DNA from: Acinetobacter sp. XS-4
Lineage (GTDB): Bacteria > Pseudomonadota > Gammaproteobacteria > Pseudomonadales > Moraxellaceae
NCBI RefSeq assembly: GCF_023920705.1
Contig: NZ_CP094657.1
Span: forward strand, 2,542,001-2,606,000
DNA length: 64,000 bases
Direction: 5' to 3'
Part shown: positions 43,628 through 46,474 of the stretch, piece by piece
Position numbering within the stretch: position 1 is the first letter of the stretch
Layout: each line of letters opens with the position of its first letter
Made by a program: the position numbers and the translations under genes
The notes under the pieces: model-generated
Told to the model about the DNA's origin: nothing
The model's input: only the letters and a program-made list of their open reading frames with translations
The model's database searches: none

Positions 43628-44179
43628 CTATTTAGCATTAAGAAAACAATTCAGCACCTTTTCCCGATCAACTGCCCCATCTGAGCTTAAAAGCTGAATG
43701 ATTGTGCCTTCAATCATATATAAAAATAGCTTTGCATCCTGAAAAGTCGCATCGGTTTTTAGTTTTATAAGCTGGCTATAAATTTCATTGATTAGCCATG
43801 TTCGATACCTCACCGCGATTTGATAAGCTTTTGAATAGGTCAGTTTAATTTCAAAAATAGCTTTAAATAATAGGTAGTAAAGCCCCTCTAAATCGGTGTG
43901 TAAGAAATAGAGTTTCTTGAGTTTATCCTTCACGCTTAAGCCTTGGTGGTACTCAGCAATTGAAACCACTTTTTCTTTTAAGCGCTCTTTCTGCACAGTC
44001 AAACAGATTTCAACAAATCGCTCTTTAGAGTGAAAGTAGTTATAAAAAGTCGCTTTTGGAATGTTTGACTCTTTGACGATTCTATCGATCCCAACCGTAT
44101 GAAATCCGTGATGGTGAAATAAATAAATCGACTTATTTACGACTTGTATGGCTCGGGAGGAAAGCACTAAATTTGGCAT
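43628..44179 (-). CDS. TetR/AcrR-family regulator
   Basis: A TetR-type regulator, 183 residues from the ATG at 44179. The helix-turn-helix FHHHGFHTVGIDRIVKESNIPKATFYNYFHSKERFVEICL lies near residues 20-60, and a variable all-helical ligand domain follows. The frame continues upstream to 44275, but that extension is poorly conserved-looking and would exceed the normal length of about 190. No partner gene is adjacent: downstream is the convergent LysR gene and upstream lies the structured region with the IS, so its target may have been lost or may be remote. The ribosome-binding site is weak. Confidence 0.8.
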   Translation of the reverse strand: MPNLVLSSRAIQVVNKSIYLFHHHGFHTVGIDRIVKESNIPKATFYNYFHSKERFVEICLTVQKERLKEKVVSIAEYHQGLSVKDKLKKLYFLHTDLEGLYYLLFKAIFEIKLTYSKAYQIAVRYRTWLINEIYSQLIKLKTDATFQDAKLFLYMIEGTIIQLLSSDGAVDREKVLNCFLNAK

Positions 44180-44300
44180 CGTTTTACCGTTATAAATTCT
44201 TGTTGTTTCTAAATGAGATACTTTTTTGGGGAGAAAAAAAGGCACAGCAAAGCCTATGACGACTGTGCTTGGCACATCTCAAGTTTTGTTGTTCAAATAA

Positions 44301-44543
44301 GTTTTTTGAGCCGTAACGACTTAAAGCCTGAAAACCTTAGGGCAATCAAGCTGCTTTAAATTTTAAGCTGTGTCGTTATAGTTTTTGGCATTGAGAGCCA
44401 AGAAATAATGGATGTGCAAAGCCAACTCCTTTTTATTGGGAGTTCTGCCGACAGGAATAGAAATTATGGTGGCAGAACGAAAGAGGGTTGACAGACTGGT
44501 GAAAGATATAACCAGCACACCCGAAGGTGTCCCTCTCCCGTCC
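44301..44543. ncRNA. Candidate large structured RNA, left part (split by IS)
   Basis: This gene-free DNA is full of complementary segments. TAACGAC near 44314 pairs with GTCGTTA near 44372. TTGGC (44385-44389) pairs with GCCAA (44397-44401). GTTCTGCC (44442-44449) pairs perfectly with GGCAGAAC (44471-44478). ACACC-CGAA-GGTGT (44517-44530) is a tetraloop hairpin. CTCCCGT (44535-44541) and the long arm 44488-44507 find their partners only beyond the IS. No open frame explains it, and the strand is undetermined. I do not recognise an RNase P, tmRNA, riboswitch or intron motif. Confidence 0.55.
44541..44543. repeat. Target-site duplication, left copy
   Basis: TCC directly before the IS left end is repeated directly after the right end at 46010-46012. 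A 3-bp duplication suits IS3-family insertion. Confidence 0.75.
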
Positions 44544-44594
44544 TGAACTGCCCCCCATAAGTTAGACTTTTTAAACTTATAAGGTGTGCATCCA

Positions 44595-45104
44595 ATGCCA
44601 GTTCCAAAGCATTCAAAAGAGTTAAAACTAAAAGTAATTCAAGCCTACTTAGATGGGAGTAAAGGCTATAAAACTCTTTCCAAAGAGTTTAATGTTGATC
44701 TCCAAACTATCAGGTTATGGATTGAAAACTATAAAGCGCAAGGTGAAGATGGTCTCAATGTTAAACTTCAAAAGGCTTATTATTCTCCAGAATTTAAAAT
44801 CAAGGCTGTACAAATGCTTCTTGATAAGATACCGGTAAGAGAGGTCAGAAGACGGTTAAATCTGAGCGGGACGTCTATTTTAAGAAGATGGTTAGCTCAG
44901 TATCATAAAGAAGGGATTGCTGGGTTTAATACTAAACGGACTTATACCAATATGACTAAGCAAGATAAAATCAAAATAGTGAAACCAACAAGAGATGATA
45001 AAGAAAAGTCTCAACAAGAACTTATTGATGAACTTACAGCTTTACGCGCAGAGGTCGCTTTTTTAAAAAAGCTAAAAGCCTTAAAACTGAAGCAACGTAC
45101 TTAA
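44595..45104 (+). CDS. IS3-family transposase OrfA
   Basis: A 169-residue DNA-binding subunit with two helix-turn-helix segments (KLKVIQAYLDGSKGYKTLSKEFNVDLQTIRLWI near residues 10-42 and KIKAVQMLLDKIPVREVRRRLNLSGTSILRRWL near residues 68-100) and a C-terminal leucine-rich helix (ELIDELTALRAEVAFLKKL) for oligomerisation. The frame opens at a GTG at 44586; the ATG at 44595 is preferred because AAGG lies 10 bp before it. The slippery heptamer A-AAA-AAG at 45065-45071 lies near its end and sends part of the ribosomes into OrfB. Confidence 0.88.
   Translation: MPVPKHSKELKLKVIQAYLDGSKGYKTLSKEFNVDLQTIRLWIENYKAQGEDGLNVKLQKAYYSPEFKIKAVQMLLDKIPVREVRRRLNLSGTSILRRWLAQYHKEGIAGFNTKRTYTNMTKQDKIKIVKPTRDDKEKSQQELIDELTALRAEVAFLKKLKALKLKQRT
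45065..45071 (+). other. Programmed -1 frameshift site
   Basis: A-AAA-AAG in OrfA phase. Slipping by -1 enters the OrfB frame, which is open from here to 45979 and reads AKSLKTEATYLNS next. This is the usual IS3-family signal for making the OrfAB transposase. Confidence 0.85.
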
Positions 45105-45979
45105 ATTCAATTTGTACTGCGGACAGTGTTCAAGTTATTTCGGAATTAAGGCAAATTTATCCATTAAAGCTACTACTCAATATTGCCAAGATAGCCCGTA
45201 GTACTTATTTCTACCACATGAAAGCTGCGTGCCCTAATGATAAATATACTGAGTTAAAACAGCAGATTAAATCTATATATCATAAGCATAAAGGATGTTA
45301 TGGCTATCGTAGAATTACTCTTGCTCTGAAAAGTGCAGGAATAATCATCAACCATAAGTGTGTATATCGCCTCATGAAAACTATGGGGCTTAAATCACGT
45401 ATCAGAGTACTCAAATATCGATCTTATAAAAGTGGTTGTGTCGGGATGGTGGCCGATAATGTTTTACAACGACAATTTAAAGCAAATCGTCCCAATCAGA
45501 AATGGGCAACTGATGTAACGGAATTTAATGTGAATGGTGAAAAACTTTACCTCTCTCCAATCATAGATTTATTTAATGGGGAAATTATTACCTTCCGAAT
45601 CCAACGCAAACTCAATTATGAGTTAGTAAAAGAGATGCTCATTCATGCTTTGGCTAAACTTAAGCGACATGAAAAGCCAATTCTCCATTCAGATCAAGGA
45701 TGGCAATATCAAATGGCTCATTACCAGCAGCAATTAAAGCAACATGGCTTAATTCAAAGTATGTCTCGCAAGGGAAATTGCTTAGATAATGCCGTAATAG
45801 AAAGCTTCTTTGGAATATTAAAATCGGAGTGCTTTCATGGTGAAAAATTTCAATCAATTGATGAATTAGAGAAAACCATACAAACGTACATTCATTATTA
45901 TAATCATGAGAGAATCAAGGTGAAGTTACAAGGTTTATCCCCTGTACAATATAGAAACCAGTTTTTAAAAACTGCTTAA
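45065..45979 (+). CDS. IS3-family transposase OrfB (made as OrfAB)
   Basis: The catalytic part of the transposase, about 304 residues in the -1 frame. It has the HTH_21-like segment YGYRRITLAL, then an RNase H-fold integrase core. The acidic triad is visible: D in WATDVTEF, D in LHSDQGWQYQ and E in NAVIESFFGILKSE, with the conserved YNHERIKVKLQGLSPVQYR ending. Independent initiation is possible at the ATG at 45218, but expression as the frameshifted OrfAB fusion is the family norm. It is full-length and without stop codons, so it is probably active. Confidence 0.9.
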   Translation, partial: KKAKSLKTEATYLNSICTADSVQVISELRQIYPLKLLLNIAKIARSTYFYHMKAACPNDKYTELKQQIKSIYHKHKGCYGYRRITLALKSAGIIINHKCVYRLMKTMGLKSRIRVLKYRSYKSGCVGMVADNVLQRQFKANRPNQKWATDVTEFNVNGEKLYLSPIIDLFNGEIITFRIQRKLNYELVKEMLIHALAKLKRHEKPILHSDQGWQYQMAHYQQQLKQHGLIQSMSRKGNCLDNAVIESFFGILKSECFHGEKFQSIDELEKTIQTYIHYYNHERIKVKLQGLSPVQYRNQFLKTA

Positions 45980-46009
45980 TTAACTGTCCAACTTTATGGG
46001 GTCAGTTCA

Positions 46010-46131
46010 TCCTACCGCTACGGGAGGAGACTAGGAGTTTACACATAAGAGTATCCCTCAGACGGAATAACTCTGATGCGATCTTTCATTCAGCCTGTCA
46101 AAGCCGGCTGGCAATGTAGGCCAGCAGGCAA
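46010..46131. ncRNA. Candidate large structured RNA, right part
   Basis: This is the other side of the IS insertion. ACGGGAG (46020-46026) pairs with CTCCCGT (44535-44541). ATCTTTC-ATT-CAG-C-CTGTCAA (46081-46101) pairs with TTGACAG-A-CTG-GT-GAAAGAT (44488-44507), giving 17 base pairs. AGAGT/ACTCT (46048-46052/46070-46074) is a local stem. GCC and GCTGGC (46103-46112) pair with GCCAGC and GGC (46120-46129) as a closing hairpin. The first three bases are the duplicated TCC. Confidence 0.55.
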
Positions 46132-46474
46132 AGGATAAGCTTCACATTTATTGCAGTCAAGCACACAAAATGCCATTTGATTTAAATTAAATCATTAGAA
46201 AAGTAAGGCTAAATAATTTAGTTTTATTATTAAAATTTGGTTTATAATATATTTATATAAAGCTAAGCTTACATTATCCGACGATATAAAGAATATTTTT
46301 TCAAAAAAGTTAAAAATGATTTCATATTCCTTAAATTTTTAAAATCACAAATACTGCTTACTGATATATAAATTTGATTATAGAAATTTATCCAATAATA
46401 ATGATTCCACAATATTTTTATACAGCCACATTAAAAATGGGCTACTATATTTTTAATAGCCCATTCTAAAATAA
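46132..46474. other. AT-rich gap without genes
   Basis: About 340 bp of very AT-rich DNA. Apart from the terminator at its right edge I see no coding frame, RNA motif or repeat that stands out. Confidence 0.6.
46436..46465 (-). terminator. Terminator of the lipoprotein gene
   Basis: AATGGGCTA (46436-46444) and TAGCCCATT (46457-46465) form a perfect 9-bp stem; on the minus strand TTTTTAA follows, 10 bp after the gene's stop. Confidence 0.85.

Follow-up and report, generated by a model that had tools for sequence, protein, structure and literature searches.

A C4 antisense RNA of phage type, interrupted by an IS3-family insertion sequence in Acinetobacter sp. XS-4, and the dispersed TetR cassettes to which it belongs

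Which RNA is encoded on the two sides of the IS3-family insertion sequence (IS) found at 44544-46009 of the window, as the whole 64,000-nucleotide (nt) stretch of Acinetobacter sp. XS-4 DNA analysed here is called (contig NZ_CP094657.1, positions 2,542,001 to 2,606,000), and what could it do there? A sequence-only reading had described a large structured RNA split by the element, on an unclear strand and without any known family. The split and the structure are borne out, and the long-range pairing is meaningful; the RNA itself, by its Rfam match and fold, is a phage-type C4 antisense RNA, encoded on the minus strand. It does not stand alone but heads, as leader, a gene cassette that is scattered over about 20 units per genome within one species group, in the order target, C4, leader, TetR. 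Each C4 is on average far better matched to the target of its own unit than to the targets of others. The best reading, which we hold to be probable, is that a phage immunity RNA has been reused as the private two-state leader switch of this cassette family.

The interrupted RNA

The 1466-bp IS and its TCC target duplication (44541-44543 and 46010-46012) are found in the sequence as had been proposed. After removal of the IS in silico, the joined flanks (362 nt) were folded on both strands, and both beat their shuffles. The minus strand did so more strongly, with a minimum free energy (MFE) of -125.8 kcal/mol (z -6.70; 100 dinucleotide shuffles, mean -91.6, standard deviation 5.1), compared with -119.6 and z -4.31 for the plus strand. 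Random 362-nt windows drawn elsewhere (24, of which 22 were scored and two near the site skipped; 20 shuffles each) averaged a z of -1.42 on their better strand, the lowest being -3.64, in agreement with the claim that pairing is denser here than in the surroundings.

Two relatives are naturally free of the IS and have contiguous flanks, L151 (Acinetobacter sp. WC-141) and L152 (A. nosocomialis NIPH 2119), in which the uninterrupted C4 scores 58.8 bits; the former folds with a z of -4.30 on the minus and -4.08 on the plus strand. They align to the window from 43635 and 43640, respectively, to 44544 and again over 46010-46217, with no other alignment from there to 49000. The extent first given to the RNA, 44301-46131, was thus too short, the unit reaching from about 43628 to 46217. 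The L151 and L152 units lie 1.1-3.4 kb from the neighbouring LysR gene and may therefore occupy a different site. Three further Acinetobacter loci (L149, L150, L153) carry the LysR gene with no cassette match in about 5 kb behind it, and the site therefore seems variable. At L152:2034-2099, STnc40 is matched weakly, at 38 bits, its gathering score being 45.

The score with the Rfam C4 family (RF01695), whose gathering threshold is 45, is 54.8 bits. This rules out a novel RNA family, overturns the statement that no known family fitted, and settles the strand as minus. No tRNA or tmRNA was detected in the window. The C4 fold is present with its stems P1, P2 and P3: P1 and P3 covary, with compensatory changes, in 21 other copies of the XS-4 genome, and P2 is supported by the alignment to the Rfam model. 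The IS cuts the P1 strand of this copy after its seventh nucleotide. The C4 strands a' and b' are complementary to a target of the a1b1 type in the same transcript. The corresponding Rfam model, RF03163 (c4-a1b1), gives at 46087-46138 (minus strand) a match of 30.4 bits, below its gathering score of 46.7, and sub-threshold matches to it also occur in 9 of 14 control genomes.

The features of the unit are listed below, mostly in the direction of its transcription.

43628-46217, minus: whole C4-TetR cassette, from promoter to TetR stop, about 1.1 kb with the IS excluded
46155-46160, minus: putative -35 box of the C4 promoter, TTGACT, 17 nt from the -10 box (sequence)
46132-46137, minus: putative -10 box, TATCCT (sequence)
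46081-46125, minus: a1b1-type target (weak RF03163 match), pairing with its own C4 loop; composed of hairpin 46107-46125, a1 46091-46105 and variable word 46081-46090
46020-46026, minus: anti-C4 arm, pairing with 44535-44541 (P1 5' arm); own-specific across copies
46010-46016, minus: opening 7 nt (GGTAGGA) of the strand that builds the C4 stem, severed by the IS; 46010-46012 is one of the two TCC copies
44544-46009, plus: IS3-family IS in the P1 stem of C4 (1466 bp; NF033516 transpos_IS3, 318.8 bits for open reading frame (ORF) B, cut-off 160)
44465-44552, minus: Rfam C4 match (E 2.7e-9)
44471-44543, minus: portion of C4 remaining on this side of the IS
44515-44532, minus: C4 hairpin P2 with UUCG tetraloop (Rfam model alignment)
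44500-44507, minus: core of the C4 loop b', AUCUUUCA, perfect complement inside the word 46081-46090
44486-44496, minus: C4 strand a', GUCUGUCAACC, complementing a1, here with a 7-nt perfect run
44442-44478, minus: downstream hairpin competing for the P1 3' arm (folding)
44424-44444, minus: hairpin AACTCC/GGAGTT with a leader Shine-Dalgarno-like sequence (sequence, alignment)
44363-44419, minus: possible leader ORF with TTG start, (M)HIHYFLALNAKNYNDTA; a similar ORF is found in other class A units
44234-44268, minus: terminator-like hairpin with T7 before TetR (sequence, alignment, by eye)
43628-44179, minus: TetR/AcrR-family regulator, the cargo gene (183 aa; start 44179)

All the helices named beforehand are present in the sequence. 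The tetraloop hairpin (44517-44530) is P2, the 17-bp helix is the pairing of a'b' to a1b1, that is, of C4 to its target, and the final GC-rich hairpin is the hairpin region of a1b1, while the 7-bp and 8-bp stems are the arms competing with the main stem P1. That list was right in its helices, taken mostly from one of two alternative folds, and omitted P1 itself.

Boxes comparable to the putative -35 and -10 sequences are seen by eye in other units. Several units, by eye, also show a short inverted repeat, AAATG-N-CATTT, upstream of the -35 box (about 46165-46180 in the window), a possible regulator site.

The dispersed cassettes and their cargo

The XS-4 genome contains 26 C4 matches above the gathering score, compared with none in 14 control genomes. 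At least one C4 is present in 127 of 149 Acinetobacter genomes, most of which have 1-10, while 15 genomes have 15-26. The 26 copies correspond to 23 units, one of which is preceded by three extra tandem copies; these bare C4s, about 85 nt each, lie at G000:C1:232520-232775 (L009), just upstream of a full cassette, and have no readable targets. The cassette follows the order promoter, target, C4, leader ORF and cargo gene, usually of the TetR family. Class A units have their Shine-Dalgarno sequence enclosed in a hairpin; the leader measures about 18 aa, and a hairpin resembling a terminator precedes TetR. Homology among the TetR-type units of XS-4 extends from about -230 to +930 relative to C4.

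A same-strand ORF follows C4 in 23/23 units of this genome; it encodes a TetR in 17, a lipoprotein-like protein of 94-100 aa in five and a 465-aa protein in one. The lipoprotein-like, Cys-containing cargo belongs to c0090146, c3201288, c4061106, c2528381 and c3009702. No Pfam match over threshold was obtained for the cargo of c4061106, c3009702 and c2528381, nor for the 465-aa cargo of c0561624. The TetR of the window matches PF00440 (TetR_N) with 38.6 bits (cut-off 24) and, over nearly its full length, the phage-database family phrog_21633 of unknown function (E 1.7e-40).

The link between C4 and TetR was evaluated in six other genomes, from the 89 of 112 TetR matches with scores above 200 bits and from the full set of 128 C4 rows, of which one is below cut-off. 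TetR was placed 346-466 nt behind C4 in 87 of the 89, and 87 of 118 C4 units had a TetR at that spacing; for one of the two unlinked genes (G083:2005230) a C4 lies 175 nt upstream, just outside the set limit. The same succession is seen in annotated plasmid-collection records of A. baumannii and A. nosocomialis (L158-L160). The TetR genes of XS-4 are under purifying selection, the ratio of nonsynonymous to synonymous divergence (dN/dS) having a median of 0.20 and a maximum of 0.33 (99 of 136 pairs, those whose dS is below 2). When viral sequences were searched with the TetR alignment, a single locus was hit, and it lies at the end of its contig. Many contigs labelled 'Acinetobacter phage MD-2021a', up to 379 kb long, contain matches to C4 and TetR and resemble pieces of bacterial chromosome; they were left out of the phage counts.

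No clean insertion site or target duplication of the cassettes was found at the window site or at L019, where larger segments are missing in relatives, nor at L022, where the unit and one of its two flanks are also present in the A. baumannii record compared; for L013 and L010 no record covering the flanks was among the matches listed. One loop, found in c1160002, L120, L125 and L133, is combined with more than one type of TetR, and RNA module and cargo therefore seem to recombine.

Pairing of C4 with its own target and predicted folds

The match between loop and variable word was analyzed on 22 of the 26 XS-4 copies, since the three tandem copies and the IS-split c2798552 have no readable target; all 22 loops are distinct. 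Perfect runs between loop and own word reach on average 7.36 nt, compared with 3.69 nt for other pairs, a difference found in 0 of 100,000 permutations, and the own word is uniquely best in 17/22 and best or tied in 21/22. When G-U pairs are allowed, the values are 7.59 and 5.15 (0/100,000). The runs between a' and a1 behave likewise (8.32 own vs 5.65 other; 0/100,000), as does the duplex energy computed for all 26 copies (-30.3 vs -24.4; 0/20,000).

The same preference is found outside this genome, both for 19 distinct loops of other genomes (7.63 vs 4.49; 0/20,000) and for 11 loci of phage or satellite type (6.91 vs 4.88; 1/20,000); in these tests 5 of 86 loci had no parsable C4 and 9 more no target, and identical loops were counted once. 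Compensatory changes, evaluated on 21 XS-4 copies from which that of the window was also left out, point in the same direction. The a'/a1 helix is paired at 97.4%, against at most 31.2% in slid controls, and contains 23 double-change cells vs 6.2 in shuffles (0/500). The C4 stems together with the upstream hairpin are paired at 97.7%, with 9 pairs changed on both sides vs 2.2 in shuffles (0/500).

Two comparisons between relatives illustrate the coupling. L122 agrees with the XS-4 unit c0233012 in the TetR (94.1%) and in 495 nt of upstream flank (94.5%), but not in the downstream flank, and between these two units loop and target have changed together; in L119 and c4061106, whose site is shared on both flanks, both are unchanged. 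From these sequences, the units would represent some 20 antisense switches per genome, differently coded and largely private.

How the precursor may fold was predicted thermodynamically, for the 22 copies, for 32 of 40 loci of other species and for 26 of 71 viral loci. By itself, C4 forms P1 in 22/22 (fold I), while in the precursor extended by 75 nt behind C4 the a'b' strands sit on a1b1 and P1 is absent in 20/22 (fold II), or in 21/22 with a slightly different folding window. When the upstream part was swapped with that of another unit, fold II was obtained in 30/132 cases, and after shuffling in 9/132. In other species, it was predicted for 15 of 16 loci with a cassette hairpin and 2 of 16 without (Fisher 6.8e-6), a split drawn after the folds had been seen, the hairpin-less loci being mostly of phage or satellite type. 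Among distinct viral loci it was found in 6/26, at least two of which carry cassettes (L194, L203). The two competing arms are own-specific, with 1 and 0 of 20,000 permutations as good in the XS-4 copies and 0 and 0 in other species. The precursor would accordingly possess two exclusive folds, of which fold II is predicted to sequester C4.

Some units also keep a match to C4 in the region behind it. This is so for the six class B units (7.67 vs 5.40; 63/20,000), the sixth of which, c2528381, has a 5-nt match only; in five of the six the match covers, by eye, the leader Shine-Dalgarno sequence of a short ORF. It also holds for 11 phage/satellite-type loci (7.91 vs 5.55; 0/20,000) and for 11 cassettes of other species (9.36 vs 6.19; 0/20,000). 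Four further XS-4 units are ambiguous (5.50 vs 4.92; 1,677/20,000), c3009702 fell outside every class in this test, and over all 26 copies the downstream duplex signal is weak (474/20,000).

Proposed working, rival explanations and the insertion sequence

The steps from C4 pairing to TetR expression could run as follows. In fold I, P1 would form and mature C4 could be excised; in fold II, a'b' would pair with its own a1b1, the upstream arm holding the P1 5' arm and the downstream hairpin the P1 3' arm, and C4 would be locked away. Mature C4 would then act in trans on a1b1, setting the fold of new transcripts, and in units with a second target also on the Shine-Dalgarno sequence of the leader. 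The choice of fold would decide the expression of leader and regulator and, because the words differ between units, each unit would control mainly itself. In the window, the IS lies between the bulk of C4 on one side and, on the other, the promoter, the target and the initial 7 nt of the C4 strand, and the switch of this unit is therefore presumably dead; its TetR frame is open.

Several results weigh against the two-state switch. Folding is a thermodynamic prediction on related sequences, and for an RNA ending at C4 fold II is the MFE structure in 15/22 copies, that of the window being among the seven in fold I. A crude short-segment test of the P1 arms showed no own-specificity (18,547/20,000 permutations as good); P1 is nevertheless supported by the pairing count of the alignment. 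The privacy of the codes is less sharp by other measures: once G-U pairs are counted, the own loop comes out uniquely best in 8/22 and best or tied in 13/22, a ranking by duplex energy puts the C4 of the same unit first for its target in 13/26, and a'/a1 has few versions, own being uniquely best in 2/22. Neither a'/a1 pairs with a double change (3 vs 1.7; 51/500) nor its pair types (5 vs 6.8; 500/500) rise above shuffles, the copies are related and their counts not independent, and none of the 13 RF03163 matches in XS-4 exceeds the cut-off. No second target was found at the leader of the 12 class A units, including that of the window (5.33 vs 5.26; 8,590/20,000). TetR may also have its own promoter.

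The first alternative is that the C4 copies are trans-acting small RNAs (sRNAs), regulating unrelated host mRNAs via their variable loops. This role is one of two proposed by Weiss et al. 2016 (PMC5320573), who regard it as potentially more likely and describe the RNAs as highly expressed and processed in appearance in strain AB5075. The diversity of the 22 loops would suit such a role, but changes of the loop are accompanied by matching changes in the upstream target of the same unit, and we regard this account as possible, at a clearly lower probability than the leader switch.

A bolder version of the switch, somewhat less probable still, would make the cassette a self-sustaining RNA memory element, keeping a heritable on or off state of the linked gene. 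Nascent RNA would conceal C4 in fold II, and C4 matured earlier would bind a1b1 and free the nascent C4, which would mature in turn. If this were true, C4 would promote its own maturation, and about 20 largely private (orthogonal) channels would coexist in one genome.

That the cassettes are an immunity repertoire, silencing incoming phages or satellites that carry a matching target, appears unlikely. C4 precedes an anti-repressor in a viral contig (L163: phrog_245, Bro-N) and a primase in a satellite-type locus (L116: phrog_1139), and a matching host C4 could therefore silence such elements. When the 106 nt behind each C4 were compared in 25 distinct of 71 viral loci, c4061106 of XS-4 matched L225 over 8 nt (loop) and 7 nt (a'), and two other pairs reached 7 and 7. 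None of the XS-4 copies, however, matched at length in loop and a' together; where the loop runs were longest, at 10 and 9 nt (c1160002 with L230 and L224), a' contributed just 4 nt, and class A loops have no match behind their own C4. The lack of a convincing viral target speaks against an immunity archive, which was discarded as main explanation on these weak matches, the best joint one being 8 and 7 nt.

Even lower stands a type I toxin-antitoxin arrangement, in which C4 would silence a short hydrophobic leader peptide. The class B match over a short-ORF Shine-Dalgarno sequence is what it would predict; class A leaders, of about 18 aa, show no sign of a second target, and a cargo gene follows the leader. 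Functionless remnants of P4-like satellites or prophages are least probable: Acinetobacter satellite-type loci do put the same kind of C4 before large ORFs (primase where tested), and bare tandem copies exist at 232520-232775, but the units of about 1.1 kb are too small for integrase or primase genes, the C4-TetR spacing is near-constant, and simple satellite decay is contradicted by the preserved own pairing and by the purifying selection on TetR.

P4 CI RNA is the C4-type immunity RNA of P4-like satellites. In Acinetobacter, C4 stands likewise before a large ORF in L084, L108, L115 and L116, whereas the cassettes lack a replication gene and mostly adopt the other predicted fold; no primase or integrase is found in the window's element, which holds TetR only. 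With the C4 (RF01695) and a1b1 (RF03163) of phages P1/P7, the present units share the C4 fold, the a'/b' loops, the upstream target and an antisense relation to their own transcript, and some keep a second target behind C4. They differ from the P1/P7 immI operon (c4-icd-ant) in that no anti-repressor gene follows C4 in 23/23 XS-4 units, TetR or other cargo taking its place, and that class A, including the window's unit, has no second target over a downstream Shine-Dalgarno sequence. The many differently matched copies in one genome, a precursor predicted to sequester C4 and the IS-split copy of the window are further differences.

C4-like RNAs are already known in A. baumannii. The work of Weiss et al. 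2016 (PMC5320573) reports copy number, expression and processing of Group 1 sRNAs, 21 of which are present in AB5075, and notes a read-coverage pattern resembling that of phage C4, whose 5' end is made by RNase P. By description these share with the present RNAs the C4 motif and an upstream hairpin, Region 1, with loop C(U)ACAUU. In the sections consulted, Region 1 is given no role as C4 target, cargo, own pairing and cassette are not described, and the sole text match to 'tetr' is 'tetraloop'. No report of C4-TetR cassettes, of own pairing or of the sequestering fold was found among the open-licence papers listed.

Under the reading as leader switches, an unexplained abundant sRNA group becomes a testable system, in which the leader of the same unit is the best match of a C4 and the following gene, in most units coding for a TetR paralogue, is what it probably controls. 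About 20 natural antisense switches with different codes would then exist side by side in a single genome, and a function is suggested for a1b1 and the upstream region.

The element that splits the RNA satisfies the description of the IS3 family, with a two-frame transposase including an rve core, terminal inverted repeats (ends TGAACTGCCCCCC.../TGAACTGACCCC...) and a short target duplication. Its coding regions are the following.

44586-45104, plus: transposase ORF A (HTH_28, HTH_Tnp_1)
45218-45979, plus: transposase ORF B, integrase core (rve, rve_2, HTH_21)

The insertion point recurs and is not incidental. All 13 close copies examined (2 in XS-4, 3 in G004, 6 in G047, 1 in G109 and 1 in G152) share one position within a C4 stem; the two of XS-4, the ten found in 3 of 13 other genomes searched and the additional one in G152 also have the same orientation. 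Few candidates were scored per genome, and copy numbers are lower bounds. The IS thus appears to be target-specific, its lineage confined to one RNA gene family. IS1397 and similar elements target repeated palindromes; the present IS resembles them as an IS3-family element sitting in a repeated stem-loop, and differs in that its target is a C4 RNA gene. No report of an IS in C4 genes was found among the open-licence papers listed. Nine weaker relatives were fetched out of 18 matches. One of them (L242) lies, by eye, in a C4 unit whose RF03163 score is 22 bits, below threshold. The other eight (L235-L241, L243) are outside C4, and seven of these, judged by eye, adjoin a T-run of the kind that intrinsic terminators have.

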